From assembly GCA_003635265.1 (NCBI GenBank), contig PYIZ01000032.1, positions 1 through 64,000 of the forward strand: a DNA stretch of 64,000 nucleotides, written 5' to 3'. The translations under genes were made by a program, and so were the position numbers. The stretch comes from Candidatus Poribacteria bacterium. GTDB taxonomy: Bacteria > Poribacteria > WGA-4E > PCPOR2b. Position 1 is the first letter of the stretch. Every line of letters starts with the position of its first letter. Below are positions 43,694 through 59,947 of the stretch, piece after piece. Under the pieces are notes generated by a model. The model made no database searches. It was not told the DNA's origin and was given only the letters and a program-made list of their open reading frames with translations.

Positions 43694-44518
43694 CTAGCCA
43701 ACTTCCTCACCGTCGAGCCTACCAACCTGCAGATCGATTTCTTCGCGGGTCTCCATCTTATCGATTTTGCCGTCCGCCATGTAGAAGATTCGATCCGACA
43801 CATCAAGCATCTTGGTATCGTGGGTGGCTGTGATAATTGTGACCCCGTTCACCTCATTCAAAGTTTTCAATAGGGCGATGATCTCAAGCCCGGTCCGTGT
43901 GTCTAGGTTTCCCGTCGGTTCATCTGCGAGGACAATTGCGGGATCGTTTGCGAGGGAACGCGCAACGGCGACACGTTGTTGCTGACCACCGGAGAGTTCG
44001 AGCGGTTTATGCTGGACCCGTTCTCCTAACCCCACAGTGGTTAGCAGTTCAACCGCTTTTGTGCGGCTATCGTCCGCGGTCATCCCAGCGAAGATCATAG
44101 GAAGGGAGACATTTTCGAGGGCGGTCATCACAGGGATAAGGTTGAACGACTGGAAGATGTAACCGATTTTACGGCAACGCAGCCACGCCAATTCGTAGGC
44201 ATCCAGTTGCGCGATGTCCACCTCATCGATGTAGACCCTGCCTTCTGTCGGCTTGTCCAAGCCACCAATCATATTGAAAAGCGTCGACTTACCGGACCCC
44301 GAAGGTCCCATAATCGAGATGTATTCGCCGCGGCGGATTTCAAAGTTAGTGCCGCGCAACGCCTCAACGACGGTGGTGCCCATCTCGTATTTTTTGATCA
44401 AGTTCCTGACCCGGACTGTGTTTTCCTTGGGTAGATCCCTCGCAAACCGTGCGGGGGTTTCCGTCGGCACGGGGGGCTGCCCTGCTGTTTCCGGAGTTAA
44501 TCCTTCTAATTCTGCCAT
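43694..44518 (-). CDS. MacB/LolD-type ABC transporter ATP-binding protein
   Basis: A 274-residue ATPase with a Pro/Thr-rich N-terminal extension of ~30 residues. Walker [10 protein letters not shown] is at 71-79, [16 protein letters not shown] is the Q-loop region typical of the MacB/LolD/FtsE class, the signature [16 protein letters not shown] is near 170, and ADEPTGNLD is Walker B. ATHD is the H-loop. This class drives FtsX-type permeases that do not form transport channels but move periplasmic parts. The only such permease in the window is the giant protein at 50883-58301, at the other end of the same gene run. The start is one base after the pqqD-like stop, so translation is coupled. Confidence 0.88.
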
Positions 44519-44519
44519 T

Positions 44520-44939
44520 TTACCTGTTTCCTTTCTTCGTTTGTTGGGGAACCGCAAATCCTACCATTCCCCGCTTGCCTAACTGCCGCATAAACTGGAA
44601 TAGCGATGTCTCCGCCTCTTTTCTCGTCATGCGATACTTATCACAAAGTTGTTTGACAATATGACCGATGGAGTTATGTCCATCGCATAATTGCCATACA
44701 AAGCCTCCTACATCGTCCAAGACAACTACACGGTTGGGAGGTAGCATAAACAGTTTCGCTACCAACTTTAACCACAGCGTCTCCTTCTGGGGGATAACCA
44801 ATGCGACTTCCCCCTTGTCATCGACCTCCCATTCGATTAGCTGGTTGCGTAGCGGCAGTGATTTTATGATGTCCGCTCGATCCAGTTGCGATTCTGGACG
44901 TTTCTTGAGCCTGAGTTTATAAAGAATTGTATTGATCAT
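44520..44939 (-). CDS. PqqD-family protein
   Basis: A 139-residue protein with a C-terminal PqqD-like winged-helix domain: RVVVLDDVGGFVWQLCDGHN, SIGHIVKQLCDKYRM, EAETSLFQFMRQLGKRGMV. PqqD relatives (RiPP recognition elements) bind peptides for modifying enzymes; others of this family are linked to transporters. No radical SAM enzyme or precursor peptide is seen here. It ends one base before the ATPase start, which implies a joint function. The N-terminal ~55 residues are basic and unassigned. Confidence 0.75.
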   Translation of the reverse strand: MINTILYKLRLKKRPESQLDRADIIKSLPLRNQLIEWEVDDKGEVALVIPQKETLWLKLVAKLFMLPPNRVVVLDDVGGFVWQLCDGHNSIGHIVKQLCDKYRMTRKEAETSLFQFMRQLGKRGMVGFAVPQQTKKGNR

Positions 44940-45009
44940 CGTTTTATTTAGTTCATTGGTACATTAGTTCACTAGTGCATTAATGAACTCTTGAACTAGT
45001 GAACTCCGC

Positions 45010-45939
45010 TTAATGACACTGAATACTTGCGGCGATCTCCTCTGCTGTCCTCGCTGCATCCTGTTTGGCGATCGCTTGAACGACGTAGATCCGATTGGAG
45101 TGATGACAGCGCCAGAGGTTGACGGCGAAAGTTTTGCGACGCATAACTTTGTCGATAACCAGAGCGGGGCCAAAAGGAACGCGGTCTATGAGGCGGGTTT
45201 CCTCGCCAATTAGCGTGAGCCGTTCCTCTGCGTCACCGTTGCTGGATTCGATTGAGAAGCCGTATCCACGGATGGCTTTGGCGTATCTCCCGCGAAACCA
45301 TTCCTCAAGATCTTGTTCCTTCAGGGTAACATCTGCGACCCCATACCGTTCGATGCTAACCTTTCGGCTGCCGTCTACGAATGAGAAGAGCAGGTAGCCG
45401 GACAATAGTTTATGCTTGTCGAGCCGATACCGCCGCGGAACTTCTGCATTGAGTTGATAAGCGCTCCAGAGCGTTGCCTGTCCTACCGGGTGATCTTGAA
45501 CAGAACTAAAGATACGGCTGGTTGTCTCCTTGATATTTTCCTTGAGATGTCCCATAACCTGCACGATTGTAATTCGTTTGCAGATGTGGCAGTGGAAGAT
45601 GACGCCGCTTGCCCGAAAGTCGCCCTTCCAGTTGAAGAAAGCAACCTCTCTGTCCTCAAAAAACTCCTCATCCTTGATTAGATTGACGTTACGTTGGATG
45701 TGGAGGTTTGTGTCTTTGCGTTTATAATTTTTGCGGACGAGTTTGAAATAGTCGTCGAGAACCTTTTGGAGGTCTGGCTTTTTTTGCTTTGATTCGGACC
45801 ATTTTAACTCAAGGCGCGGCATATCCGCATCCTCAAGGCGCAGGTATCCGCTTTTATCGTCGCCGGATAATCCACTCAATTCCCAATCTTCGGGTAGTTC
45901 AAGGGTGATGCCACCCCACCCTAAAGTTGTCCAGTTCAT
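45010..45939 (-). CDS. Uncharacterised 309-residue protein of the envelope gene run
   Basis: Starts MNWTTLGWGGITLELPEDWE. It appears built of two similar halves, each with a strand-rich PsbP/DUF1795-like beginning (WGGITLELPEDWELSGLSG and, later, KHKLLSGYLLFSFVDGSRKV) followed by helices. Each half also has a Cys-His segment (FHCHICKRITIVQVMG and LWRCHHSNRIYVVQAIA). The repeated C-H / R-I-x-V-V-Q pattern suggests an internal duplication. There is no signal peptide. It precedes the PqqD-like gene by 70 bases. I do not recognise the family. The open frame extends 32 codons upstream into the interrupted four-helix gene but is not protein-like there. Confidence 0.65.
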   Translation of the reverse strand: MNWTTLGWGGITLELPEDWELSGLSGDDKSGYLRLEDADMPRLELKWSESKQKKPDLQKVLDDYFKLVRKNYKRKDTNLHIQRNVNLIKDEEFFEDREVAFFNWKGDFRASGVIFHCHICKRITIVQVMGHLKENIKETTSRIFSSVQDHPVGQATLWSAYQLNAEVPRRYRLDKHKLLSGYLLFSFVDGSRKVSIERYGVADVTLKEQDLEEWFRGRYAKAIRGYGFSIESSNGDAEERLTLIGEETRLIDRVPFGPALVIDKVMRRKTFAVNLWRCHHSNRIYVVQAIAKQDAARTAEEIAASIQCH

Positions 45940-45967
45940 AACGTAATACGTAATGCGTGAAGCGTGG

Positions 45968-46436
45968 TTAGGAGAACGGTACGTGTTGTACAAGAGGATC
46001 TGTGCTCTCCATATTGTAGGCCTGAGGGACTTCACGTAGAGTCCCCTGACGTTGTTCTGGAACCATCGTTAGTAGCAATCGAATAATATGGGTGAGAAGA
46101 CTCAGGCGATGGGCAGTAACCGCCGGACCCAATATGTGCCTGCCCTTGTAATACCAATCCCGGCTCTCTAGCAGAACCGAGCGCATATTCATAGAAACGG
46201 GATCTATCCTTGCCTGTTCCGCGTGAATAACCTTCAGCGAGGTTCGCACTGATAGAACCTAGAGACCGGTAGAGTTGATTTGACAATGCCAGTGTACGTT
46301 TATCCCGCATCAGTTTAGTTGCGTCATGCCACCCAACATCCGCAATAAACAATCCTAGACGATAAGCCTTTATCTTCCATAAAGAGTCGTTAGTGATTTC
46401 AGTAGGAACCGATTTTTCCCATTCTTCATAGTTCAT
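45968..46436 (-). pseudogene. Four-helix-bundle (S23 / rRNA intervening-sequence type) protein, frameshifted
   Basis: The first part encodes LALSNQLYRSLGSISANLAE, GYSRGTGKDRSRFYEYALGSARE and then loses frame. The second part, in another phase, continues ESRDWYYKGRHILGPAVTAH and LTHIIRLLLTMVPEQRQG. Together they give a complete four-helix-bundle protein of the S23/IVP family (~150 residues). The break falls in a (CT)3 run at 46164-46169 on the plus strand, where two extra bases would restore the frame. It is therefore a slippage-type deletion, a phase-variable switch or a sequence error. Family functions are poorly known. Confidence 0.75.
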
Positions 46437-46504
46437 TCGACCGATTTTTTTGCATACTCCTGTGAGATTTCACGGTTAACGCTTTATGTTTTACGCTTCA
46501 CGCA

Positions 46505-48502
46505 TTAGAACGGTTTGACAATGACCGCTTTAGAGACTAGCGCAATAGCGACTGTTCCCATTCCAATCAGTCCAACGCCACAAGTAAAGCCTGCCGCCAG
46601 AACAGGATTAAACATGAACCAGCGTTTCAGACCGAATTTCTTAATCATGTAAAACCGACCGACAATTGCGCCGAACACTTTTGGAAGCATCATACCCGGA
46701 TCTGCACCGATACCGCCCACGATTCCGTAGAACCACATACTTGGCATCTTCGCTACCCAGAGTACACCGTAGATTGCCAGAGAGGAGGCGAAGCCTGCCG
46801 CCACATAATTGCCACGAATGGCTTGCAACATCTGGCTGTTTCCGTCCCGCAGCGAGGTTTTCCAGAGGCATTCATTGGTCGCATAGAGGGGCCACCACGT
46901 CTGTGCGAATGGGTATTGCGCCGACGGGATCGGTGCAACTTTCCAGACAAAATGCCAAACCACAATGCCAGAAACGATCAGAATCGGCATAAGTAGCAAT
47001 CGTGCGGCGATACTACTGGTGAAGGTGGTGCCTGTCAATTCGAGGACGCGCCAACTTTGTGTGCCACGTCCGTAATCTTCGTCGGGCAGCGGAACGAACC
47101 AGATATCGATCTCCTCATAACGACTCAAGATAAATGTCGTTTCGTGAAGGTAAGGGATCTCGAAAAGGTCGCGACCGAGTATCCCGTACGTTCTCGCAGT
47201 GATGTATGAATTGACCGGGGTATACAAAAAGGCGAAGCCGACTAGGAAAATCAACGGGAAGTTCGGCGCCATATAGGTGTGAACAATATAGATGAAGGTC
47301 GTCATCCCAAAGAGCCACAGGATTGCCATCAACCAGAGCGGAAAATCGCCGCGTCCCGGAGGTGGTGCGCGTAACGATCTACCTACATCAGTCTGTTCCT
47401 GTCGGGCTTGCTTAAACTTTATCACCATCGGAATCGAGGCTGCCATGCCAACGAGGGCGAAGCTGAAAGATTTTCCCATCCCGAAGCTGATCCAGAAATC
47501 GAGACCATTGTATAAGCCCACACCACGAACATCTAAGCCGGGACGCCACTGATGTAAAATTTCCGCAGGATAGAGGATTCGTGGATTCAGAATAAACTGG
47601 GTAAAGAACGCGCCTGCGAGTTCCGTCATGATGATAGGAAATGGCAGCACAAAACCGGTGAGTATCGCTCCGAAGTCGGTTGATAAGGCGAACACACCTG
47701 TTGGTGCGACTTCTTCGATTACATTCGTGAAATCAATAAATGGAATCTTTAGGAGCTGTATCGGCGTTGACATCATCACCCCTGTGAGTGAAGGGATGCC
47801 GATATAGATAAACCCCCAGATCAACCCCGCCATAGATCCGACTGAAAAGACACGCCAACGCCATGTTTCCTCGCGCCCGGTGGTCTCTGCCAATGCGGTC
47901 GCACCTTGTGCTTCGATGGGTGCCATTGGGTATGGCAGCCGCTCCATGTCCGCTGTCAGTCGAAACAGAAAGTAACCTGCACTGATATAGCGGATCTCTC
48001 CCAAGAGCTTGAATATCAGAAAGAATGCGATGGGCCAGAACCAGTCCATGTGCAAGAGCGAACGCTCTGCGATAGCTAGCGCATCTTTCGGCGGCACAAT
48101 CCAGAAAGGGATCTTATCCGCAATTTCGTACGACGCAGCTTGTGGCGTATTGACAAAGTATGCGTACCAGATAAAGCCGCGATACTGACCCCCGGACCCG
48201 ACCGCTGCACCGGTGAGTCCAAGTAACATATAAAGCTCTTGTCGTCGAGCGGTTGTGAAAGATCGACGGGCTAACTCCGTGAACAGGATAACTGCGACCC
48301 ACGGCGCTGCGCCTGCGCCGGACTGACCGGATACGAGGGTTAGATAGATTGACCCCGGCATCATCAGCAAGCCGACAAAAAGTGCGCCCAAAAAGACCTT
48401 CAGCGTTAGACCTGACTCAAAGGTGCGGATTCCACCATCTATGTCGTAACGCTGCGCCCAAGTTTGCCATTCTTCTGCTTGTGTAATGCGTTCTCTTGCC
48501 AT
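46505..48502 (-). CDS. OPT-like / DUF6785-type polytopic membrane protein (copy 2)
   Basis: A 665-residue integral membrane protein with about 14 hydrophobic segments. The N-terminus MARERITQAEEWQTWAQRYD is cytosolic. GSIYLTLVSGQSGAGAAPWV near 50, LPYPMAPIEAQGATALAE near 190 and the conserved end GGIGADPGMMLPKVFGAIVG recall oligopeptide-transporter (OPT) family signatures. Planctomycete and poribacterial relatives are labelled DUF6785/DUF6784. It is a full-length paralogue of the gene at 48673-50670 (about two-thirds identical by eye). The substrate is unknown. It is separated from that copy by 170 bases holding a palindrome. Confidence 0.65.
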   Translation of the reverse strand: MARERITQAEEWQTWAQRYDIDGGIRTFESGLTLKVFLGALFVGLLMMPGSIYLTLVSGQSGAGAAPWVAVILFTELARRSFTTARRQELYMLLGLTGAAVGSGGQYRGFIWYAYFVNTPQAASYEIADKIPFWIVPPKDALAIAERSLLHMDWFWPIAFFLIFKLLGEIRYISAGYFLFRLTADMERLPYPMAPIEAQGATALAETTGREETWRWRVFSVGSMAGLIWGFIYIGIPSLTGVMMSTPIQLLKIPFIDFTNVIEEVAPTGVFALSTDFGAILTGFVLPFPIIMTELAGAFFTQFILNPRILYPAEILHQWRPGLDVRGVGLYNGLDFWISFGMGKSFSFALVGMAASIPMVIKFKQARQEQTDVGRSLRAPPPGRGDFPLWLMAILWLFGMTTFIYIVHTYMAPNFPLIFLVGFAFLYTPVNSYITARTYGILGRDLFEIPYLHETTFILSRYEEIDIWFVPLPDEDYGRGTQSWRVLELTGTTFTSSIAARLLLMPILIVSGIVVWHFVWKVAPIPSAQYPFAQTWWPLYATNECLWKTSLRDGNSQMLQAIRGNYVAAGFASSLAIYGVLWVAKMPSMWFYGIVGGIGADPGMMLPKVFGAIVGRFYMIKKFGLKRWFMFNPVLAAGFTCGVGLIGMGTVAIALVSKAVIVKPF

Positions 48503-48614
48503 AACAACTCACAGTTCATTAATTCAGGGGGGCATTGGTTCATTAATTATGGACTTAATAGCTTATTGATGGTATATCCTTTAGTAGGTTGAGCTGCCAA
48601 GATCGACAGTTAAG

Positions 48615-48642
48615 TGTCGAGATATGAATCTCGACCTACGGG
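48615..48642 (-). repeat. TCGAGAT-type palindrome between the two OPT-like genes
   Basis: TCGAGAT-ATGA-ATCTCGA followed by CCTACGGG, identical to the elements at 12121 and 31264. The flanks carry degenerate TTCATTAATT-type words. Confidence 0.65.
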
Positions 48643-48672
48643 TTGTGCTGACTGGTATTTACATGTTACTCA

Positions 48673-50670
48673 TTAGAACGGTTTGACGATGACTGCTTTG
48701 GAGACCAGCGCGATTGCAACTGTTCCCATGCCAACAAGTCCGACGCCACAGATGAAGCCTGCCGCCAAGACGGGGTTATACATAAACCACCGTTTCAGAC
48801 CGAACTGTTTGATCATGTAAAACCGACCGATGAGTGCGCCTATAACTTTTGGAACCATCATCCCTGGGTCTTGACCGATCCCGCCAACGATTCCGTAGAA
48901 CCACATACTTGGTAACTTTGCCATCCAGAGCAGTCCGTAAATTGCCAGCGAGGAGGTAAAGCCGGCCGACACATAGTCGCCACGAATGGCTTGTAGCATT
49001 TGGCTATTCCCATCTCGAAGCGAGGTCTTCCAGAGACATTCATCGGTTGCGTAGAGGGGCCACCATGTTTGTGCAAAAGGATACTGTGAGGACGGGATAG
49101 GCGCGATTTGCCAGATAAAATGCCAGACCACGATTGTTGCAACAATTATGAGCGGCACCATCAAGGCACGTCCAAGGACATCGCTTCTGAAGGTTGTTCC
49201 AGTCAGTTCAAGCACACGCCAATGCTGTGTGCCCGCACCATAATCTTCATCGGGTAAGTGGACAAACCAGATGTCAATCTCTTCGTAACGGCTTAAAATA
49301 AAGGTTGCTTGATGGATGTAGGGCAGCACGAAGAGGGGTCGCCCTAGCACCCCGAATGTTCGTGCGTTGATATAGGAGTGCAAAGGGGTGTACAGAAAGG
49401 CAAAGCCGAGCAGGAACGAAACGGGGAAGTTTGGCACCATCCGATGCACAATCCATACATATACCAACATGCTGAGAACCCACAGACCGCCCATGAGCCA
49501 GATTGGGAAATCGCCGCGTCCCGGCGGCGTTGCCATTGACCCGCGTCCTGCAGCCTCTTGCTGTCGTGATTGTCTAACGCTCAGCATGATTGGTATGGAC
49601 GCTGCCAACCCGACGGCGGCGAAGCTAAAGGATTTACCCATATTGAAACTCAACCAGAAATCGAGGTCATTAAACAGCTTGACACCACGCATATCCAAGC
49701 CCGGGCGCCACTGATGTAGGATTTCCAATGGATAAAGGATTCGCGGGTTCAGGATAAACTGAGTGAACATTGCTGCCACAAATTCGCTTATAATGATTGG
49801 AAACGGTAGCACGAATCCCTGTAGTATTAGTCCGAAATTTGTCCATAGGGCAAACATACCCGATGGTGCAAAACTTTCGATGCTCGGGGTGAAGTCGATA
49901 AATGGGATTTTTAGAATCTGTATGGGTGTTGACATCATCACCCCTGTGAGCGAGGGGATACCGATATAGAAAAACCCCCAGAACAGCCCCGCCATAGAGC
50001 CGATGGAAAAGACGCGCCAACGCCATGTTTCGCCCTGACCTGTGGTTTCGGCTAGTGCGGTCGCGCCTTGCGCCTGAATCGGTGCCAGCGGGTAGGGGAG
50101 TCGCTCTAAATCTGCTGTCAGACGGAACAGAAAATAGCTCGCGCTAATATAGCGGACCTCCGCCAACAACTTGAATATCAGAAAGATTGCAAGGGGCAAG
50201 AACCAATCCATATGCAGCAGTGAACGCTCCGCAATCGCCACTGCGTCTTTTGCGGGTGCGACCCAATAGGGGACTTTGTCCGCTATTTCATAGGATTGTG
50301 CCTGCGGTGTGTTGATAAAGTAGGCGTACCAGACAAATGGATAGGCACGATATTGGGTCCCAGAGCCGACTGCCAGAGTGGTTAGCCCCAGCAAAATGTA
50401 AAGTTCTTGTCTCCTTGCAGTTGTGAAAGACCGGCGCGCCAATTCTGTAAATAGAATAACCGCTACCCAAGGTGCTGCGCCCGCGCCCGACTCCCCGGCG
50501 ACTAAGGTCAAATAGATTGAACCCGGCATCATCAACAGTCCGATGAAGACCGCGCCTAGAAAGACTTTCAGGGTTAAGCCGGACTCAAAGGTTCTTAAAC
50601 CTCCGTCAACATCATAACGTTGTGCCCAAGCTTGCCACTCTTCTGCTTGCGACACCCTCTCTCTTGCCAA
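48673..50670 (-). CDS. OPT-like / DUF6785-type polytopic membrane protein (copy 1)
   Basis: A 665-residue membrane protein, same length and topology as the copy at 46505. It starts MARERVSQAEEWQAWAQRYD and has GSIYLTLVAGESGAGAAPWV, LPYPLAPIQAQGATALAETT and GGIGQDPGMMVPKVIGALIG. The initiation codon is TTG: the aligned ATG of the other copy falls on TTG, with AAGGAG seven bases upstream. It begins 24 bases after the small two-helix gene, so it belongs to the same transcript as the giant permease. Divergence is greatest in loops, which hints at different ligands for the two copies. Confidence 0.65.
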   Translation of the reverse strand: MARERVSQAEEWQAWAQRYDVDGGLRTFESGLTLKVFLGAVFIGLLMMPGSIYLTLVAGESGAGAAPWVAVILFTELARRSFTTARRQELYILLGLTTLAVGSGTQYRAYPFVWYAYFINTPQAQSYEIADKVPYWVAPAKDAVAIAERSLLHMDWFLPLAIFLIFKLLAEVRYISASYFLFRLTADLERLPYPLAPIQAQGATALAETTGQGETWRWRVFSIGSMAGLFWGFFYIGIPSLTGVMMSTPIQILKIPFIDFTPSIESFAPSGMFALWTNFGLILQGFVLPFPIIISEFVAAMFTQFILNPRILYPLEILHQWRPGLDMRGVKLFNDLDFWLSFNMGKSFSFAAVGLAASIPIMLSVRQSRQQEAAGRGSMATPPGRGDFPIWLMGGLWVLSMLVYVWIVHRMVPNFPVSFLLGFAFLYTPLHSYINARTFGVLGRPLFVLPYIHQATFILSRYEEIDIWFVHLPDEDYGAGTQHWRVLELTGTTFRSDVLGRALMVPLIIVATIVVWHFIWQIAPIPSSQYPFAQTWWPLYATDECLWKTSLRDGNSQMLQAIRGDYVSAGFTSSLAIYGLLWMAKLPSMWFYGIVGGIGQDPGMMVPKVIGALIGRFYMIKQFGLKRWFMYNPVLAAGFICGVGLVGMGTVAIALVSKAVIVKPF

Positions 50671-50694
50671 ATTTATGCTCCTTTCACGAGCCCG

Positions 50695-50886
50695 TTATTT
50701 TTTTTCTCGAAAAAGCTCTTCCCAGACGTGGGCAATAATAATTCCGACAATGAGAATCACGGCAGCGAGTAGCTGTGCCTGCCATCTACCTTGCATGGCG
50801 AAAATCGAAAATACCCAAAAAATTGCACCGACAAAAATTAAGACATACGCTAATTTTTCCACTGATTCTATTTTCTCCTTCTTCAA
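50695..50886 (-). CDS. Small two-helix membrane protein
   Basis: A 63-residue protein with a charged start (MKKEKIESVEKL), two transmembrane helices (AYVLIFVGAIFWVFSIFAMQ and LLAAVILIVGIIIAHVW) and a basic end, LFREKK. Its ATG overlaps the stop of the giant permease gene by four bases (ATGA), a classic coupling arrangement, so it is very likely a real partner subunit or assembly factor. I know no family for it. Confidence 0.7.
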   Translation of the reverse strand: MKKEKIESVEKLAYVLIFVGAIFWVFSIFAMQGRWQAQLLAAVILIVGIIIAHVWEELFREKK

Positions 50887-53800
50887 TCTGCTGGTGTTGG
50901 TTGAGCGACTAGACCGCCAACGCCCGGAGCATCTTCCGTCTCGCTCTCTTGGCGTCCACGCTCATGAAATTCACCGCGAATATCGGCACTGAACGTCCGC
51001 CAAATCAACAACTGTTTTCGGACAAGGTTCAAGAAACGACGGTTGACGCGCTTCCATGAAGCGATTTCCCCACTCTCGCGGTGGACATCGAGGTGAATCT
51101 TATACAACTCTTCCTCTTCTCCGCCGACCGGTGAGGTGACAAGCCGAATGGATTGGCTGACCCCGAGATCGTAGGGAGCGAGCCACACCATCATGCTGAT
51201 ATTGTAGGCTTCCTCCTCCTCTTTACCTTCCACTACTACCGGCGTTCGACCAAAGGCGACCTGATCTGTATAGAAGTCGCTTGCGGATTCGTCGGCATGC
51301 GCCTCAAAGTAGTCGCGCATAAAGATATTCAAGCCGAGCGATTCTTCTGCTAGTACTGTGAAGGGGAGATCGAAGTGCCATTCGTCGCCTTCAGGCTCCG
51401 GCAGCTGCCATTTCCGCTCGATGTCAGGCACCGCCATGCGACTCGCTTTAATTGCAGGGTACAATGTACTTCCAATCACGACAATCATTACGATAATGGT
51501 TGCTACCACTGTTGACATTGACGAGTAGTTGAGAGTCAATCCCGCGAGTAAACCGAATTTGACAAGCACAGTTGCGACAGCCTGACCGAGCAGATAACCG
51601 AGCACAGCGCCGACGATCGCATACACACACGCTTCTGCGAGGAACAGGAAGGCGATATGCACAGGGGCAAGTCCGACGGAACTGTAGATGCCGATTTCAC
51701 GGACCCGTTCGTAGACCGCACCGAGCATCGTATTCAGAACAATCAGCGACGCAATTAGGATCGGTATAAACAGATTACCCATACCAGAGAAAGAGGTCAT
51801 TCCGATAGAACTGTAGAGGTAGGTGTCCCGATCTTTTCCAACGAAGAAGTCGAGTGCGATTCGATTCATCAGAGGAGCCATGATTAGGTCCAGTTTGTCT
51901 GCTGCGCTAAAGATTGTTGGATCACCGGGCTGTACTTCCATGTTAACAGCGACCGATCGTAGCGTTCCACCCTGATTCATCACCACATCATACGGAAGGA
52001 TAGCCACAGCGTCAGGAGGCAGATGGATATATTTTTCCAACTCTCCTTCCATAGCTTGGTTCTGTCCCTGTGCACCACCGCCTCGCGCTTCCTGCTGCTG
52101 CATCAGTTGGTAGTCAACCGGTGTCAGTTCCTCACCATCGTTATCCTGTAAATCCTTGAAGCCGATACCGAGGACACCTGTAACGGTGAAATTCGCGCCG
52201 TATACGGATACAGTCGCTTTGCCCATATCCGCTTCGGTGATACCGAGTAGATCCGCCATACCTTTGGGCAAAACGCAAGCATAGGGCCATTGTGTGGGCC
52301 ACTCTGCCTCATCGTCCGGGTGATACCATCGACCATACTGAAGGTAACGATCAATCCCTGTTACACCGGGTTCATTTTGACTCATCCCGACCAGCATAGT
52401 GGCGGAGTAAGTCTTTGGCTGACCGGTTGTGGTATTGACAGGGGGTACAGGATCTTGCAGATTGGGGGTGCGCTCTAACTGCACAAACGACTGATCACCG
52501 GTTCCCGCCGACTGATACCACGCGCGTGGTGCGACGATGTTGTGCACTCGCAATACGGAGTCTTCACCGAGCTCAATCAATGCACCCTGCTGACGTAATT
52601 GGGCTGTGATTTCTTCAATTTCTCGATCTGCCTGCTCTGCTGATTTACCTCGCTGACCCAATCTTTTCTTCAGCAGCAACCGTAGGTCTTTCTCAGGGAT
52701 TTGCGTTTTCCGCAAATCATTTGTGAGTGAGTTGACAACGGGCTCCTCAAGCGGATTCCAATACTGATCTCGGATGAGCATCCCAGTGTACCGCGGCGTT
52801 ACTGAAGGTAGGTTGGTACTGTTAGGGTGCATAAATGTACGCACCGATGTAAAGGAGATGACCGTGAAGGTAAGGATGACCAATGTGCTACAGGTGAGGA
52901 TGGTACGTCCCTTCCGCTTACGCATATTGGAAATCCCCAAGCTGAAAGCGGCAGCGGAGGCAGACAAACGTCCCACATCTGCCTTATACACCTTTGATCC
53001 TTCCTGCTTAATTTTTTCCACCTGTTCCTCAAACTTCCGGACGATAATACTGATCACGATTGCCGTCAATGCAAGGACAACGAACGCAATTAGGATGATA
53101 ACCGGTGTTGTAGTAATCTGGAACGCGGGGTGTACCTGCGCCAAGAAGAAAAAGACAACGAGGAAGATCGCGGCTGTCCCGACAATCTGTTTTTGGACGG
53201 TTGGGAAGGCGAACAGCAGCCGTTCCATGAAATAAGCGAACGGAATCAGAAGCGCGAGATAAAACATCACGCCGTTCACCACGTCATTGCCTGTTTTCTT
53301 CACATCGGGGTAGGCACGGGATTCGTATCCCCAAGCCGCACGAGCGAGTTTGAGTGCCTGCTGATAGTCTTTTTGCGTGAGGGCAGCCTCAGCCTGATTC
53401 AGATGTTCGTTGGCGAATTGGTGGAGCTGATCGAGCCGGTCACTACTGATGCCGAACCGTTTGTACAGACTTGCTCGGTTCTCATCGAGCCACCACATAT
53501 CGCGGACGACAACGTATGGAGTCACGCGAATGCTACCGTTCTCACGAACTACAAATCCTTCTCCGGTATAAAGTGTCGGGTTCTTTGTTCCACTCTTACT
53601 TGCTTTAATCAAGAGCAACCGTTTGCCGATTTGTCCATACGCCATACCAACTTTGATACGACTGTTGGGTTCCGAATAAACGAGCGCGATTGGCTCAGTT
53701 GCCGAGACACCTTCCTGCTGCCACGGCTTCGATACCCCATACTTTTCTGGTGGGCTATCACTTGCAGCATCAAAAACTTCCAGTTCACGCAGCGTCCGTA

Positions 53801-56800
53801 GGTATCGCTGATCCACAAGATCGTAGATAGTGGTGGACACACAGGGGAAAACCACTATCCGGCACCCACGACGGTGGGTGTTAATCGGAATTAGGTTGGG
53901 CAAGAGTTTCGCGCCAAAGTTACCGAGATCTGGTGCATAGACAATATCTCCAGAATCGGGATGGAGGATATAGGCTTCAACCTCCTGCGTTCCTTTGAGG
54001 CGTATGGTGGCGCGTCCCTCCATCGCGAGGCCTGCGACCTCGAAGTTACCTTTATTGTCTCCCATTGCGATGAGATCGCCACGCACGCCCATCATCGTTT
54101 TGTGCTGATTCCGCAAGGCGAGGATAGGATATTCCACCGGCTTGTTTGGAAGTGCACTCTCGCGAGCATCATACTCGACCACATCGCCAAACAGGTTACA
54201 GTAGAAGTTCCCCACCCGCGCGGCGGTGGGCATCTTCGGATCGCGCATCGCTTGGATAAGAACGGCAGCAAGGGTTTTCGCCTGTTTATGCAAAGCACCA
54301 TCTTGGCTCAAATCCATTCGGTCGATTGTATCGAGCGGGGTATCGGTCAACACACGGGCATCGTCGATGGTGGCAAAAGCGATTCCAGTAAAGCCGGTGA
54401 GAGTTGCCACTTCACTATCAAAGGCGATCTTGCCGGGAATATAGGTTTTCCAGATCTTACCGCCACTGGCGGAGATTGCGTTGACAAAGTTGGTCGCACC
54501 GCCAAAACCGGCGATATCAATGAGTGCTTTGATATCATCAACTTCTTCTTGGGTGAATTCGGACGGGTCCTCGTAGCGCAGGGCAAGCATCGCATCCATT
54601 CGATTCAGCAGGCGCACCTTATTCTTGCGGTTCTTCCGCGCCTCACGGATATCGTTTCGGATGAACCGTTCGACCTCCTTACGGATATAGTCCATATCCT
54701 TGAGCATATCCTCGGAAGGTTCGCCCTGATTCCTCATCTGTTCAAACTGCATCTTCATCAATCGAGAGACCCCGGAGAGTCCGACCAATGTTGCGTAATG
54801 TTCGGTGACTAGGCTTTCAAGGCTCTTACCTTCGATGGCTTTTTTCGGATCGATACCAGCTGCAACCGTCCACTGGGTGTTCATCACCGCTTGGCGGATC
54901 TGGTCGTCAGTGAAAGTCCATAGTTTCTGGATCCGCTCACCGAAATCGGCTTGCTCCGCGTATTCCGCAAGTTTATTTCCGATGGAAGCGAACTCACGAC
55001 GGAGGACAAATTCGGGTTGTTGGTCGTAAAACCACCCTTTGTTGAACACGCCGAATTGGTCGTTCTGGCTGGAGAGGTCAATGGAGATAAAGAGGGAGGT
55101 GTAGTAACGGTTGAAGATATCTTGCAGTGCGATTGCTTGTTCGATAGAGCGTATTTTCCGAGTGTATTCTGATTCGCTGATACGTGCAATCTTCTCCACC
55201 CGTTTCTGTAGATTACGGAATCGAGCGTTACGCATCGTCAGCAGGTTATCGCGCAGGAGAATCTTGGTCTCCTCGTCCGGGTCGCGATCGAGACGGTCAA
55301 GGATGTTCAGTAGGTTCTGGAGTTCGACAATATCGTTCTTGGCTCGCCGCTTCACCATCTCTAGTAGATGTTGTTCTTCAAGCTGACCAAAGATCTGCTC
55401 ACGGACAGCCATCGCCCGGTCTGCTGCATCTTCAGGGAGATAGTGGCGGATGACGAGCGCCTCTTCGGCGAGGTAGGGGCGGTTCAGCGACGCATGGCGT
55501 TTGAGGAGAGATTCAATTCGAAAGCGCTCAAGGCGAGCGTTACGCATTGCGGTTTCGAGGATACTCTGTTTGTCTCTCGTGAGGTCATCAACCAAGATTT
55601 GGTCTAGTTCTCGTGAGGTTGCTGTTCCCGTTGTTGGGTCCATCATCTCCAACTTCTGGTGGAGTTGGGTCTGAACAATCTCAAACTGCTTGAGGGTCGC
55701 TGCATTAAGGAAAAGTTTTAACTCATCATCAAAACCTTGCGGGATGTGATCCGGCTTAGCACTCAACTGGGTGATGGCATTTTTGATGCGATCCTCTGCA
55801 TCACTGGTTGAGGGAATGTTTGCGAGCGCCCGTTCAAGGAGTTGTCGTTCTTCTTCAATATAGGCTTCCAGAGATTTTTCAGCGCGATTGACAACCCTAC
55901 GGGCTGACTTGATTCGTTCCAACCCCTTAAAGTCAAGATGGCGATCTAACAACTTCTCTTGGGCATACTGGAGGGTGAATTTCCGTGGATCTTCAAATTC
56001 CCAATCCTGCAAAGCTTCCGACAGTTGCTGCGCGTCTACCTCCAAATGCTGCGGTAGGTCACTTGGCGCAGGTAAATAATGGCTACCATCTTCCCGTTCC
56101 TTAGGTACGAGATAGCTGCTGTCTGGTGTTTGGGCATATTTCCCTTCGATTCGTTTTGCTGCCAAATCTGCTATCAGTTTGTCGATTGCCCATACATCTA
56201 ACCGAGCCATCGGTAAGGCAATCTGTTCAATTAGGGCGCGCTGGGCTTTACGGCATTCCTCCAATGCCTGTGAACGCAATTTTAAGGTGCGCTGAAGCAT
56301 TGAACCGAGGAATTGAGTCGTCTGCAGCGCATCTTTCTTGAACTTTGCAAGGTTCACTTCCAGTCGTGACTTCTCCTCTTCGGTAAATCCTTGTTTTTCC
56401 CGTTTCTTGGTTGTTTCGAGTTTTTTCTTCTCTTTCTCCTTTGCGTCGCGTTGAGCGTTACGCAAGCTATTAATTTTTCCCTTTGTTGATGCGAGATCGG
56501 CGAGGGTTGTTGCTAGGGAATTGACATCTGCTTTGAGTCCATGTACTTCGTGGAAAAAGTCCGGGGGTAGGTCTACTAGCACGTTCCGATCAATCGACAG
56601 CAGCAGCTTGCGCCCTAATTCTTCAAACTCAAAGAGGTCCGTGCTTAAACCGCGGCGCAGCCCGCGCATTGTCGGTGTGCCGGGAGAATCCGCTTCTCGC
56701 CCGACGACATCTTGACCAATCCCTTCCATAAATGCTCGCATACCACCTAGCCCTTGGAAGTGGGCATCTGTTGCGACAAACAGGAGGGATCTGCCCGGAC

Positions 56801-58301
56801 GGAATTCCTCTTGGCTAAAGATACGCGCAAGTTCCAACAGCGTGGCGATGCCACCGGTGGGGTCGGCACCCGGTGCCATTGCAGGAACGACAGACATCGA
56901 GTCGTAATAGCCGGTGATAACGACCAATTCGTCCTTGAGGGTTGGGTCGCCACCTTCGAGGAAACCACGAATGTTCTGTCCGATACGTTGTTCCCAAGTG
57001 ATGGTACTAGTGAGACGTGCATACAGTTTCTGAGGAGACGAGTCCATTTGCATCTCCCCTTCGCCAAGCATTGCCAAGAGCTCATCGGCGTCTTCCTTAG
57101 CAATCCAGAAACGGGGGATATTGGCGGGGACCGTCAGAAATTTGTTCTCAGCCTCACCGCGGATCGTGGTCTCCGGCTCGATGAAGAGGACGGCTTTTGC
57201 GCCAAGCATGGCAGCGTTAATCCATTTAGTGCTGGAGTTAAAGTCAACTAGTGCAACACTGCCTTGGGGGATAAAGATGCTGGATTCATAGGCGGCGACA
57301 AACTCGCCTTCCTCGTCAATTTGCCCATTGTTGTTGTTATCAATACCATCAGTTTCATCGCCGGGGATCTCATCTACAAAGTTGTCGCCGTCGTTGTCGA
57401 TGCCGTCGGTATCCCATTGTAAAATCTCAGTCAGCGGGGGAATCTCACCGTATTCGTCAATCTGTCCGTCTTCATTGTTGTCAATGCCATCTTGTGTCTT
57501 TTGCAGGTGACCGTTAAGAACGTCGTCGGTGATGCTGCCGACACCGATACGGAAACGGTGGGCGAGGTCATCCAGCGTATCGCCCGGTTGAACTTTATGC
57601 CAGAACCCTCCGATATCTTTGCCGTTAAACGAGGAGAGTTCGCCAGCTCCGCCATAAAAGAGGGGTGCGGTCAATCCGCCGGTAGGAATAAAGAGCGAGT
57701 TGCCTTCTACCAGCACTAACTCGCCCGGTTCGTCGATTTCACCATCATCATCGTTGTCGCTGCCATCGGTTGCTTGGTCTCGGAGGTATTGGTTATGGGG
57801 GTCAGCCAAGATAGCGAGCGGGTCAACTTGATAAGATTTGGCGATTCCATCAAAGGTTTCGCCTTGAACGACTACATGAGAGACACCGTTGGGGAGGAAG
57901 GAGGTACGAACAAGATTGGGCCAGATGGACCAGATTCGGTAAGTCTTCAGAAGCGTCTGATCTTCGGAGAGAACTTCTACTTTTCCATCACCGTGATCTA
58001 TTGGAACAGAAACAGGAAACTCACGGCTCTCGACGTTTTGTAAGCCGATTTCGACGAATTGGTCGAAGATGTATTTGCTGCCTGATGCGGCTTCATCGTA
58101 GCCAGTGACGCGGGTGGGAAGATTCGAGAGTCGAGCAATGTCTTTTCGCATTCGACCGATATCAACTTTGTCGCTAATTTTGACTGCAACCTCCGAAAGC
58201 CCGACGGATAGCTGCTCCTCAACAGCAGCATCCGCGTGCGGAGATAGCAGCGCAAGGATGCAGAGCCATAAACTAATGTGATAATATTTCTTGGTGATCA
58301 T
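50883..58301 (-). CDS. Giant fusion: LysM + Ca-binding repeats + split M28-like domain + coiled coil + FtsX/MacB permease
   Basis: A 2,472-residue exported membrane protein. Order: a signal peptide (MITKKYYHISLWLCILALLS); LysM-like repeats at ~142-175 (VVVQGETFDGIAKSYQVDPL) and ~234-265 (KVQPGDTLDDLAHRFRIG); four TSP3-like acidic repeats (DGSDNDDDGEIDE, DGIDNNEDGQIDE and similar) at ~179-332; the first half of an M28 peptidase-like fold at ~455-530 (VVITGYYDSM..., GGIATLLELARIF, FVATDAHFQGLGGM); a ~650-residue Lys/Glu-rich helical insertion; and the second M28 half at ~1240-1350 (ATIDDARVLTDTPLDTIDRM). Three helices lie around 1670-1760. An FtsX/MacB unit follows, with helices near 1800 and at ~2180-2290 (VYERVREIGIYSSVGLAPVH), and then a soluble tail. 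Metal ligands of M28 look degraded (GADPTGG for GADDNGSG), so it is probably a binding module. GGAGG precedes the ATG. Confidence 0.85.
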   Translation of the reverse strand: MITKKYYHISLWLCILALLSPHADAAVEEQLSVGLSEVAVKISDKVDIGRMRKDIARLSNLPTRVTGYDEAASGSKYIFDQFVEIGLQNVESREFPVSVPIDHGDGKVEVLSEDQTLLKTYRIWSIWPNLVRTSFLPNGVSHVVVQGETFDGIAKSYQVDPLAILADPHNQYLRDQATDGSDNDDDGEIDEPGELVLVEGNSLFIPTGGLTAPLFYGGAGELSSFNGKDIGGFWHKVQPGDTLDDLAHRFRIGVGSITDDVLNGHLQKTQDGIDNNEDGQIDEYGEIPPLTEILQWDTDGIDNDGDNFVDEIPGDETDGIDNNNNGQIDEEGEFVAAYESSIFIPQGSVALVDFNSSTKWINAAMLGAKAVLFIEPETTIRGEAENKFLTVPANIPRFWIAKEDADELLAMLGEGEMQMDSSPQKLYARLTSTITWEQRIGQNIRGFLEGGDPTLKDELVVITGYYDSMSVVPAMAPGADPTGGIATLLELARIFSQEEFRPGRSLLFVATDAHFQGLGGMRAFMEGIGQDVVGREADSPGTPTMRGLRRGLSTDLFEFEELGRKLLLSIDRNVLVDLPPDFFHEVHGLKADVNSLATTLADLASTKGKINSLRNAQRDAKEKEKKKLETTKKREKQGFTEEEKSRLEVNLAKFKKDALQTTQFLGSMLQRTLKLRSQALEECRKAQRALIEQIALPMARLDVWAIDKLIADLAAKRIEGKYAQTPDSSYLVPKEREDGSHYLPAPSDLPQHLEVDAQQLSEALQDWEFEDPRKFTLQYAQEKLLDRHLDFKGLERIKSARRVVNRAEKSLEAYIEEERQLLERALANIPSTSDAEDRIKNAITQLSAKPDHIPQGFDDELKLFLNAATLKQFEIVQTQLHQKLEMMDPTTGTATSRELDQILVDDLTRDKQSILETAMRNARLERFRIESLLKRHASLNRPYLAEEALVIRHYLPEDAADRAMAVREQIFGQLEEQHLLEMVKRRAKNDIVELQNLLNILDRLDRDPDEETKILLRDNLLTMRNARFRNLQKRVEKIARISESEYTRKIRSIEQAIALQDIFNRYYTSLFISIDLSSQNDQFGVFNKGWFYDQQPEFVLRREFASIGNKLAEYAEQADFGERIQKLWTFTDDQIRQAVMNTQWTVAAGIDPKKAIEGKSLESLVTEHYATLVGLSGVSRLMKMQFEQMRNQGEPSEDMLKDMDYIRKEVERFIRNDIREARKNRKNKVRLLNRMDAMLALRYEDPSEFTQEEVDDIKALIDIAGFGGATNFVNAISASGGKIWKTYIPGKIAFDSEVATLTGFTGIAFATIDDARVLTDTPLDTIDRMDLSQDGALHKQAKTLAAVLIQAMRDPKMPTAARVGNFYCNLFGDVVEYDARESALPNKPVEYPILALRNQHKTMMGVRGDLIAMGDNKGNFEVAGLAMEGRATIRLKGTQEVEAYILHPDSGDIVYAPDLGNFGAKLLPNLIPINTHRRGCRIVVFPCVSTTIYDLVDQRYLRTLRELEVFDAASDSPPEKYGVSKPWQQEGVSATEPIALVYSEPNSRIKVGMAYGQIGKRLLLIKASKSGTKNPTLYTGEGFVVRENGSIRVTPYVVVRDMWWLDENRASLYKRFGISSDRLDQLHQFANEHLNQAEAALTQKDYQQALKLARAAWGYESRAYPDVKKTGNDVVNGVMFYLALLIPFAYFMERLLFAFPTVQKQIVGTAAIFLVVFFFLAQVHPAFQITTTPVIILIAFVVLALTAIVISIIVRKFEEQVEKIKQEGSKVYKADVGRLSASAAAFSLGISNMRKRKGRTILTCSTLVILTFTVISFTSVRTFMHPNSTNLPSVTPRYTGMLIRDQYWNPLEEPVVNSLTNDLRKTQIPEKDLRLLLKKRLGQRGKSAEQADREIEEITAQLRQQGALIELGEDSVLRVHNIVAPRAWYQSAGTGDQSFVQLERTPNLQDPVPPVNTTTGQPKTYSATMLVGMSQNEPGVTGIDRYLQYGRWYHPDDEAEWPTQWPYACVLPKGMADLLGITEADMGKATVSVYGANFTVTGVLGIGFKDLQDNDGEELTPVDYQLMQQQEARGGGAQGQNQAMEGELEKYIHLPPDAVAILPYDVVMNQGGTLRSVAVNMEVQPGDPTIFSAADKLDLIMAPLMNRIALDFFVGKDRDTYLYSSIGMTSFSGMGNLFIPILIASLIVLNTMLGAVYERVREIGIYSSVGLAPVHIAFLFLAEACVYAIVGAVLGYLLGQAVATVLVKFGLLAGLTLNYSSMSTVVATIIVMIVVIGSTLYPAIKASRMAVPDIERKWQLPEPEGDEWHFDLPFTVLAEESLGLNIFMRDYFEAHADESASDFYTDQVAFGRTPVVVEGKEEEEAYNISMMVWLAPYDLGVSQSIRLVTSPVGGEEEELYKIHLDVHRESGEIASWKRVNRRFLNLVRKQLLIWRTFSADIRGEFHERGRQESETEDAPGVGGLVAQPTPAD

Positions 58302-58370: not shown

Positions 58371-58399
58371 ATTCTATCATAGTCACAAAGTCTTGTCAA
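58371..58399 (-). promoter_or_regulatory. Strong promoter of the giant-permease operon
   Basis: On the minus strand TTGACA (58394-58399), 17 bases, TAGAAT (58371-58376), about 70 bases before the start of the giant gene. Confidence 0.65.
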
Positions 58400-58601: not shown

Positions 58602-58692
58602 ACGAATCACAATCGTTAGAAAGTGTAATAAATGTGCTTTTCTGCGATCGTATACCGCTTTTTACTCTAACCCGATAAGGAGGTATGTGATT

Positions 58693-59028
58693 ATGTCTGT
58701 TTCATTACGTATTAAGGGACGTCGTGACAAACTCGGAATGACACAAACACAACTCGCCAAAGCAGCGAAACTGACCCCTGCAGCGATTTCACAGTTTGAG
58801 TCCGGTGCCCGTAAACCTGCATTCGACACGCTTTCAAGCCTCGCTGACGCGCTGAAAGTTACCACGGATTACCTGCTTGGCAAAAAGGCGCACGGCTACG
58901 ATGATCTTTTGGCGGATCCAAAGGTCAGCGTTATGTTTAGAGGCATCATGGAGCTTTCCGAGGAAGATAAAGAAACACTGATCGAGTTCTACCAATTTCT
59001 TAAAGACAAAAATCACAAAAGCGCGAAG
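58693..59028 (+). CDS. XRE-family helix-turn-helix regulator
   Basis: A 112-residue DNA-binding protein. Residues 3-60 are a Cro/CI-type HTH: RIKGRRDKLGMTQTQLAKAA, then KLTPAAISQFESGARKPAFD, ending in LADALKVTTDYLLG. The C-terminal part (SVMFRGIMELSEEDKETLIE) is a short helical region as in small phage-type repressors. The start at 58693 has AAGGAGG nine bases upstream; a GTG six bases earlier is less well placed. The annotated end excludes the stop at 59029-59031. It is divergent from the giant-permease operon and 31 bases ahead of an ImmA/IrrE protease that probably inactivates it. It may control itself, the neighbouring operon or both. Confidence 0.88.
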
Positions 59029-59059
59029 TAGTGCATGATGAAGGATCTACTGTTTAAAC

Positions 59060-59947
59060 ATGAATCAGAGACCTTCCCGAAAAGATCAGACTGCAGAGCA
59101 GGTGTCCTCCAAACCCACTCTGGATCCCGCCGAGGGTGCGCGACAGTTGTTGCGTGAACTAAATGTTCAGAACATCCCGATTCAGCCGCGACATATTGCG
59201 GAACAGCTACAAATCATCGTTTGGGAGCGTGAGATGGAAAGCCAGTACGATGGTTGCTTGATGCGGGTCGGCGACACTTGGGGCATTCTGCTCAACAATC
59301 TGATTCAATCAGAGTCCCGAAAGAACTTTACAATCGCTCACGAATTGGGGCATTACTACTTGGAGAGTGGGCAAACGGAGAGACAAAGTTCCGCTGCAGG
59401 TGAGACAGACAGCGTGGCGGAATTTGTCCCTCAGCACCGTTGTCAGCGCGAGGATTTGCACGGCTTCGACTCGCACCGATTGGAGGAGCAACGTGCCAAT
59501 CAGTTCGCGGTTGAGTTGCTGATGCCCTCTCCCATTTTCCGAGCGGACGCTACAGATCTGCCTGAAATCGGCTTGCCGGCGATTGATACGCTGGCTGCTA
59601 GTTATTCTACCTCTTTGACTAGCACAGCGATCCGGTACACCCGCTTGAGTCCGCATGTCTGTGCGATTGTCCTGTCTGAGCAGGGGCAGATTAAATATTT
59701 TGCGTATTCAGAGCGGTTTCGTCAGAACAGCGATTGCTATCTTGACACAAACAAAGCCCTCCATCCTGACTCGGTTGCCTCGCTGCTTGCCAAGGGCGGA
59801 TCGAAAGAGGTCAAGGAGCATCAGCGGACAGTTCCGTTATCCCATTGGTGCTCGACGCAATCGGATCAACCCCTCGTCGAGCAATCCCGCCGATTACCCC
59901 GCATGAATCAGGTGCTCTCGTTTCTTTGGTTGCCCGACTCTCCTTGA
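59060..59947 (+). CDS. ImmA/IrrE-family metallopeptidase
   Basis: A 295-residue zinc protease of the ImmA/IrrE type. HELGH at 94-98 is the HEXXH motif, within FTIAHELGHYYLE, and the third-ligand helix is EEQRANQFAVELLMP. Relatives cleave XRE-type repressors to switch on genes, for example ImmA-ImmR of ICEBs1 or IrrE-DdrO in Deinococcus. Here it follows an XRE regulator, matching that arrangement. A C-terminal region of ~100 residues (SPHVCAIVLSEQGQIKYFAY...) could sense a signal. No mobile element genes surround the pair, so a stress-response switch is possible. Confidence 0.88.
   Translation: MNQRPSRKDQTAEQVSSKPTLDPAEGARQLLRELNVQNIPIQPRHIAEQLQIIVWEREMESQYDGCLMRVGDTWGILLNNLIQSESRKNFTIAHELGHYYLESGQTERQSSAAGETDSVAEFVPQHRCQREDLHGFDSHRLEEQRANQFAVELLMPSPIFRADATDLPEIGLPAIDTLAASYSTSLTSTAIRYTRLSPHVCAIVLSEQGQIKYFAYSERFRQNSDCYLDTNKALHPDSVASLLAKGGSKEVKEHQRTVPLSHWCSTQSDQPLVEQSRRLPRMNQVLSFLWLPDSP

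Follow-up and report, generated by a model that had tools for sequence, protein, structure and literature searches.

What kind of machine is encoded when a 2,472-residue permease fusion is followed, in one direction, by carrier-like proteins, a PqqD-like protein and an ATPase? The question is raised by a stretch of 64,000 nucleotides of contig PYIZ01000032.1 from a Candidatus Poribacteria bacterium, referred to here as the window, in which seven genes on the minus strand extend from 58301 to 43694 (all coordinates are those of the forward strand). We tentatively propose, at somewhat less than an even chance, that this conserved gene set encodes an asymmetric type VII (MacB/LolCDE-like) ATP-binding cassette (ABC) complex, in which a receptor captures a peptide-like ligand and hands it to OPT-fold carriers. 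Direct observations concern how the genes are ordered and how widely that order is kept, the families to which the FtsX module and the ATPase belong, the residues replaced in the giant protein, the co-occurrence of this giant with the OPT-like protein and with a separate small permease (mini-FtsX), and the OPT fold of a carrier model; complex formation, ligand and direction of transport are what we infer.

A gene cluster conserved across Poribacteria

The giant gene (50883..58301), defined by translation, Pfam, hydropathy and homologs, is followed by a gene for a two-helix protein of 63 amino acids (50695..50886) that overlaps its 3' end by four bases. Next come OPT-like carrier 1 (48673..50670), which translation, pairwise comparison and synteny mark as a lineage duplicate, and carrier 2 (46505..48502), both of 665 amino acids and 79% identical to each other; a conserved protein of 309 amino acids (45010..45939, counted from a conserved Met, the mechanical open reading frame (ORF) having 341); a PqqD-like protein of 139 amino acids (44520..44939); and, one base further, a LolD/MacB-type ATPase, ABC1 (43694..44518 from its ATG; the mechanical ORF starts at 44557). 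Reading of the window genes and their coordinates confirmed the gene order, single direction, four-base overlap and one-base gap described in an earlier sequence-based annotation, hereafter the original prediction. The absence of any other ATPase, also claimed there, agrees with the fact that nothing else in the window matched the ATPase query. The seven genes counted were all found, but an eighth short ORF (46032..46436), located between carrier 2 and the 309-residue protein and missing from most Poribacteria loci, had been overlooked.

The giant gene was detected in 81 of 84 Poribacteria genomes, including 54 of the 55 of high quality. Relatives found in genome contigs, 66 in number and all from Poribacteria, constituted the synteny set, in which a locus was considered testable for a given gene if the gene was found or the flank was long enough by preset thresholds. 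Among the genes found, the order giant, small protein, OPT, 309-residue family, PqqD and ATPase, on one strand, was invariant over the 66 loci. The small protein was present in 61/64 testable loci, OPT in 62/64, the 309-residue family in 60/63, PqqD in 57/60 and the ATPase in 54/57. The misses comprise L051 and L053, each a second giant placed elsewhere in its genome, L034 and L041, in whose flanks the later genes were not detected, and L058, without a detected small protein; the contigs of L027 and L071 stop shortly after the giant. L051 and L053 are unlinked paralogues that carry an extra stretch near residue 1908.

The original prediction was supported in part. The proposal of one conserved neighbourhood of giant, OPT-like, PqqD-like and ATPase genes was therefore borne out across the 66 Poribacteria loci, as was that of an FtsX-type permease with an adjacent ATPase. 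Neither a usual separation of these genes nor another ATPase always placed beside the giant, the outcomes that would have spoken against the original prediction, was found in Poribacteria; outside the phylum the ATPase was linked in three of five genomes and apart in two. The predicted pair of OPT-like genes also exists in the window, and OPT is a near-constant partner of the giant. However, more than one OPT match was found in only 5 of the 62 OPT-bearing loci, the duplication being a trait of the window's genus and its near kin. Since synteny extends over 66 loci and co-occurrence across phyla, as described below, the cluster goes beyond what chance would produce.

The giant permease and its M28-like ectodomain

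Hydropathy analysis of the giant protein indicated a signal peptide and about seven transmembrane helices, and Pfam matches above cut-off were obtained for M28, LysM and FtsX, those for PA and MacB_PCD remaining below. The signal-peptide-like N-terminus spans residues 1-27 (58221..58301; hydropathy peak at 9-27). Three transmembrane helices at residues 1674-1753 (53043..53282) precede the FtsX module, which covers residues 1800-2287 (51441..52904), according to Pfam, homologs and hydropathy, and consists of one transmembrane helix, a periplasmic domain of about 360 residues (hydropathy gap 1818-2178) and three further helices. The FtsX match (PF02687) scored 47.2 bits (2.7e-12; cut-off 25.5), and relatives found for the module include MacB, LolC and YtrF. 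MacB_PCD passed its cut-off in the giants of two genomes of other phyla, G266 (32.7) and G121 (28.2). The C-terminal domain, residues 2290-2472 (50886..51434), is conserved, predicted to be cytosolic and without a Pfam family.

The ectodomain is built on an M28-like fold. A profile made from eight ectodomains of giants outside Poribacteria (outgroup giants) matched PA-bearing M28 aminopeptidases (2ek8) at 6e-18, as well as nicalin and the transferrin receptor in the PDB; all eight matched PF04389 and five of them PA. In the window protein, the first half of the core lies at residues 443-525 (56727..56975), with His in the position of the catalytic Glu and Tyr in that of the first His ligand. 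The second half, around residues 1265-1400 (54102..54509), was placed by a conserved DTP.D motif where M28 has HTP.D; scores of this stretch were not significant on their own, and the same register was obtained with 2ek8 and 6hc6.

Active-site positions were compared by alignment with Aeromonas aminopeptidase, which provides the roles of metal ligands and catalytic Glu, in 186 proteins (124 relatives and 62 Poribacteria giants). The first zinc His is replaced by Tyr or Phe in 121/124 relatives and by Tyr in 62/62 Poribacteria giants; at the bridging Asp position, Poribacteria have Pro or Thr, whereas most of the 124 relatives carry Gln, Ser, Asn or Met; His stands in place of the catalytic Glu in 121/124 and 62/62; the Glu that follows has become His, Phe or Tyr in 121/124 relatives; and the last His is Asp in 123/124 and 62/62. 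Only the third-site Asp is retained, in 111 of the 124 relatives (Glu in 11) and in all 62 Poribacteria giants. Nearly all 186 proteins thus deviate at five of the six positions; the catalytic Glu and most metal ligands of an M28 peptidase are lost, and an active peptidase was rejected on this basis. The M28-like fold of the original prediction is thus present, but judged by its sequence the domain is a pseudo-enzyme. Several replacement residues are themselves conserved, and this suggests that a non-catalytic pocket has been kept.

Two stretches interrupt this fold in Poribacteria. A LysM motif was identified by Pfam at residues 235-258 (57528..57599), in the PA-domain region amid Ca-type DxDxDG repeats, and a helical insertion with long helices, delimited by alignment coverage and AlphaFold2, occupies approximately residues 545-1050 (55152..56669). 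In four aligned outgroup giants, coverage was 0 for residues 251-300, in the LysM/Ca-type repeat region, and little or none for the helical insertion. LysM was also missing from two outgroup giants scanned with Pfam and from the precomputed Pfam lists of all 120 relatives listed in a wider search. LysM, Ca-type repeats and helical insertion therefore look like Poribacteria insertions, and for this reason wall binding, which the original prediction had considered, besides peptide binding, for an outer part made of LysM, the repeats and the M28-like fold, is unlikely to be the core function and was rejected as such. An AlphaFold2 model of residues 340-1440 was confident mainly in the helical insertion, with a predicted local distance difference test (pLDDT) of 75-94 in most blocks of 649-1060; a Foldseek search with this giant-fragment model gave no match below E 0.001. 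A separate observation is that the G266 giant (L118:3845-8749), which has the M28-like fold, bears an F5/8 type C domain at the point where the Poribacteria helical insertion starts.

ATPases, carriers and a tentative machine

ABC1 contains Walker A, LSGGQ, Walker B and H-loop motifs. Its best models were LolD, MacB, DarD, DevA and YbbA, all below their cut-offs, and neither the LolD equivalog (229 bits; cut-off 307.75) nor that of FtsE (204.9; cut-off 264.85) was reached. As in type VII systems, a dedicated ATPase of the LolD/MacB/FtsE kind lies beside the giant; the two are separate genes, not an ATPase-permease fusion as in MacB.

The view that the permease and ATPase of the window are the whole engine was rejected once a second permease, missed by the original prediction, had been detected, initially in outgroup genomes and later in Poribacteria. 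This mini-FtsX is a separate FtsX protein of about 214-220 amino acids without a periplasmic domain: hydropathy shows four helices, and the place of the giant's periplasmic domain is taken by a loop of about 31 residues. OPT-like relatives with 42-47% identity were detected in five genomes of other phyla (G121, G157, G194, G207 and G266), in all of which a giant directly precedes the OPT gene, its length ranging from 1,041 (truncated where the contig stops) to 1,634 amino acids. G121 presents six contiguous genes (giant of 1,478 amino acids, OPT, 309-residue family, PqqD, mini-FtsX and ATPase), and G157 the same contiguous cluster minus the 309-residue family. Mini-FtsX is located between the PqqD-like gene and the ATPase in G121, G157 and G266, the three genomes with linkage between ATPase and giant. 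The ATPase is separate in G194 and G207, in which the sets 309-residue family-PqqD-mini-FtsX-ATPase and mini-FtsX-ATPase, respectively, lie away from the giant. Each of the five genomes has a single ATPase ortholog (69-73% identity, others 51% or less), and this ortholog adjoins mini-FtsX in all five.

A strong mini-FtsX ortholog was found in 78 of the 84 Poribacteria genomes, and in the 12 loci checked it adjoins a second ATPase, ABC2. The clade of ABC1 has a support of 99, and by sequence identity the ATPases of the outgroup resemble ABC1 (71%) more than ABC2 (64%). The two ATPases, ABC1 beside the giant and ABC2 beside mini-FtsX, are probably paralogues arisen by duplication. Mini-FtsX is missing from the G000 assembly and present in 5/5 genomes of the same genus (in G019, as two pieces).

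The identity of the carriers was addressed with an alignment-based model of carrier 2 (P0004; pLDDT 80), which displays the OPT/YSL fold. In a Foldseek search, its sole matches below E 0.001 were 7wst and 7wsr, both barley Yellow stripe 1 (TM-score 0.62/0.67, identity 13-14%). No Pfam family was matched by the window proteins (P0003 and P0004), and one of seven family proteins scanned passed the Pfam OPT cut-off (P0192, 28.9 vs. 25.8). Profile comparison with DUF6785 gave a probability of 32% (E 5e-4), which makes a distant kinship possible. DUF6785 is multicopy: at least five copies were scored in each of the 84 Poribacteria genomes, and first-look candidates numbered 8 to 86 (e.g., G000:C31:27418). 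The PqqD-like protein has a Pfam PqqD domain (3.1e-13, and alignment) and scored below the PqqD equivalog cut-off (40.5 vs. 46). For the 309-residue protein, no Pfam family above cut-off (only weak unrelated matches in a family scan) and no PDB profile match were obtained.

Co-occurrence was analysed in a panel of 288 genomes (84 Poribacteria and 204 others) searched for each of four proteins. Matches in Poribacteria and others, respectively, were 81 and 5 for the giant, 81 and 5 for OPT, 78 and 5 for mini-FtsX, and 84 and 5 (strong) for DUF6785, with two further weak DUF6785 matches at 3e-5 and 2e-7. The five non-Poribacteria genomes were the same for all four proteins, and giant and OPT co-occur in the same 86 of 288 genomes; G023, G032 and G033 are the Poribacteria without a match to either. 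A chance match of two five-genome sets among 204 has a probability of 3.6e-10, a figure that ignores shared ancestry and the fact that the five were first found via OPT; G121 and G266 belong to one small phylum. In a wider search for the giant, 7,996 candidates were scored and 942 proteins reached E 1e-20 or better; names among the 120 matches listed include Latescibacterota, Omnitrophota, Ratteibacteria, WOR-3 and Caldiserica, and 16/16 genomes of the phylum of G194 carry giants, most of them several. Ten non-Poribacteria giant loci were read (L118, L122-L125, L146-L149 and L176). OPT adjoins the giant in six; L148 ends too early, and L146, L147 and L149 are without OPT. DUF6785 genes, recognised by sequence similarity, lie near five (L118, L122, L146, where it is divergent, L148 and L176). 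The 63-residue protein was not detected in the outgroup loci read.

On these grounds, the giant with its degenerate M28 ectodomain would pair with a mini-FtsX encoded elsewhere, driven by the LolD-type ATPase. Such an asymmetric heterodimer is suggested because, in all five non-Poribacteria genomes, one ATPase ortholog must serve both permeases. We assign a receptor and a hand-off role in view of the dead M28 fold and the OPT neighbour: by analogy with other M28-fold pseudo-peptidases, the ectodomain would act as a receptor that catches a peptide-like ligand on the outer side of the inner membrane. Movement of the periplasmic domain, powered by ATP, would deliver the ligand to, or gate, the adjacent OPT-fold carrier. 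In favour of this reading, L051 and L053, the giants without the cluster, each have a same-strand gene downstream for DUF6785, the possible distant relative of OPT. The PqqD-like and 309-residue proteins would work on the cytoplasmic side, the former by binding a peptide.

Several data weigh against this proposal. In Poribacteria, mini-FtsX lies away from the giant in 12/12 loci and no giant flank examined holds it, so that it could belong to a separate machine; G023 and G033 keep mini-FtsX without a giant or OPT match, and G000, G005, G024, G029 and G058 have a giant and no strong mini-FtsX, several of these assemblies being incomplete. The tree node joining outgroup ATPases with ABC1 has a support of only 56, and G302 has giants and no close ATPase ortholog (best 49%; assembly 83% complete). 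Neither OPT nor DUF6785 was matched in the flanks examined of two of the ten non-Poribacteria loci, L147 and L149, and in L147 a different ABC ATPase (L147:6195-6776, 31% to ABC1) is found upstream of the G194 giant. At the level of single proteins, the OPT-like profile gave no sequence match in the PDB, MacB_PCD stays below cut-off in the window giant (22.5 vs. 27; 1.5e-4), and the ectodomain model is poor, much of the M28 part having a pLDDT under 50.

A broader version, which we regard as quite improbable, would make giant, mini-FtsX and ATPase a shared ATP motor for the adjacent and for many DUF6785-type OPT-fold carriers, with the dead peptidase as common receptor, and hence the first ATP-driven OPT system. 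The distribution of DUF6785 bears on it, since strong matches among the 204 non-Poribacteria genomes were confined to the five giant-bearing ones and each of the 84 Poribacteria has at least five scored copies.

If true, the proposed complex would add pseudo-peptidase receptors and OPT-fold carriers to the range of type VII ABC machines, and would represent a new way of coupling ATP to the OPT carrier family; it also provides a function hypothesis for the uncharacterised DUF6785/6784 families. The cluster is phylum-wide in Poribacteria, with relatives elsewhere, and is built of families of unknown or unexpected function. The G121 set is a compact version that could be made in a laboratory strain.

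Alternative readings, neighbouring genes and known systems

Among the alternatives, an extractor similar to YbbAP-TesA or LolCDE would, by motion powered by ATP, pull a lipid or lipoprotein from the inner membrane and show it to the ectodomain, the OPT-like genes being co-regulated and independent. The MacB/LolC-type permease and the LolD-type ATPase are those of such systems, and YbbAP-TesA is an example of a type VII machine with a hydrolase held against the outer domain (PMC12646458). Nevertheless, we consider this explanation unlikely, given that the hydrolase fold of the giant has lost its catalytic residues and that an OPT-like gene stands beside the giant in Poribacteria and in 5/5 other genomes, with co-occurrence in the same 86/288 genomes.

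A regulator resembling FtsEX-EnvC, in which ATP moves the coiled insertion of the giant and thereby toggles wall enzymes while LysM anchors it to the wall, would account for the LysM and long helical insertion of Poribacteria giants. It appears quite unlikely, since both elements are absent from the four aligned outgroup giants, one of which has F5/8C instead, none of the 28 neighbour families listed, most of them without a domain scan, was recognised as a wall hydrolase, and Foldseek found nothing below E 0.001 for the model containing the insertion. It is equally doubtful that there is not one machine at all and that independent envelope genes are kept together by co-regulation alone. Spacers of 70-170 bases, inserted short ORFs, the separation of giant and ATPase module in G194 and G207, and mini-FtsX without a giant in G023 and G033 are in line with this idea; the matches of giant, OPT and mini-FtsX to the same 5/204 non-Poribacteria genomes and the invariant gene order in 66 loci speak against it. 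Very unlikely is a peptide exporter or maturation system whose PqqD-like domain binds a peptide made inside the cell for export by the ABC machine: the PqqD-like gene does directly precede the ATPase or mini-FtsX in Poribacteria and 4/5 others (it was not found in G207), but no radical-SAM or precursor family was recognised among those 28 neighbour families, and the OPT carriers would be left unexplained.

Besides the cluster itself, the original prediction missed two genes on the plus strand upstream of the giant, a divergent XRE-type helix-turn-helix regulator (58687..59031; HTH_3, 1.7e-15) and an M78 (ImmA/IrrE-like) gene next to it (59060..59947). Over 1,200 bases of upstream sequence were available at 56 loci; the divergent XRE gene was present in 42 of these and M78 beside it in 14. 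The strong promoter claimed for the giant gene corresponds to a promoter-like site on the minus strand (58371..58399; 11/12 match, TG before the second hexamer), which is indeed the best-scoring site of the scan. However, the scan yielded 12 sites in total vs. 15.4 expected in shuffles, so that this promoter is only suggestive.

The ORF at 46032..46436 matches the 23S rRNA IVP four-helix-bundle family only in the middle of the protein (residues 38-91) and looks worn. ORFs of this family occupy differing spacers of the cluster, or lie just past it, in related genomes (also in L019, L021 and L060), and a second short-ORF family, found in six loci downstream, near the spacer between OPT and the 309-residue family, is possibly of the same kind. 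Downstream of the ATPase, same-strand families include a SelA-like pyridoxal phosphate enzyme (37/66 loci) and a metallo-beta-lactamase fold (35/66), one member of each having been domain-scanned, and at L124:9412-10626 and L125:7022-8236 the gene immediately after the ATPase encodes a GAF-GGDEF protein (diguanylate cyclase). At the start of the window, an IS605 OrfB-type transposase gene was identified (344-1444).

The listings returned by literature searches contained no description of a type VII ABC system with a pseudo-peptidase ectodomain, mini-FtsX and OPT-fold carriers, and a term search of PMC3909097 gave no match to any of six terms. Compared with known systems, the proposed complex shares with type VII ABC machines (MacB, LolCDE, FtsEX, BceAB) the LolD/MacB-type ATPase and the FtsX permease in which a large domain separates the first two module helices. 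It differs in its ectodomain, which is a degenerate peptidase fold, in three extra anchoring helices, in a likely asymmetric partner without periplasmic domain, and in the OPT-fold carrier as near-constant neighbour. YbbAP-TesA is likewise a type VII ABC with a hydrolase fold on the outer side (PMC12646458); in the giant, by contrast, this fold is fused to the permease and its catalytic residues are lost, and the giant contains a single FtsX half, compared with the two that YbbP combines in one chain.

The M28 fold itself is shared with nicalin and the transferrin receptor, which were among the PDB matches of the ectodomain. Both are inactive M28-fold proteins with a receptor-type role; neither is fused to an ABC permease, as the giant is, and the Poribacteria fold is split by LysM and helical insertions. 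The carriers resemble OPT/YSL proteins such as barley Yellow stripe 1 in their predicted fold, but those of the window match no Pfam family and are tied to an ABC cluster. In ECF (energy-coupling factor) transporters one ATP motor serves several carriers, and a shared motor, suggested here only by the multicopy DUF6785 genes, could be a likeness, although their permease and carrier families are different. The engine, a type VII ABC, is already known, and it is the combination with the other parts that appears to be new.

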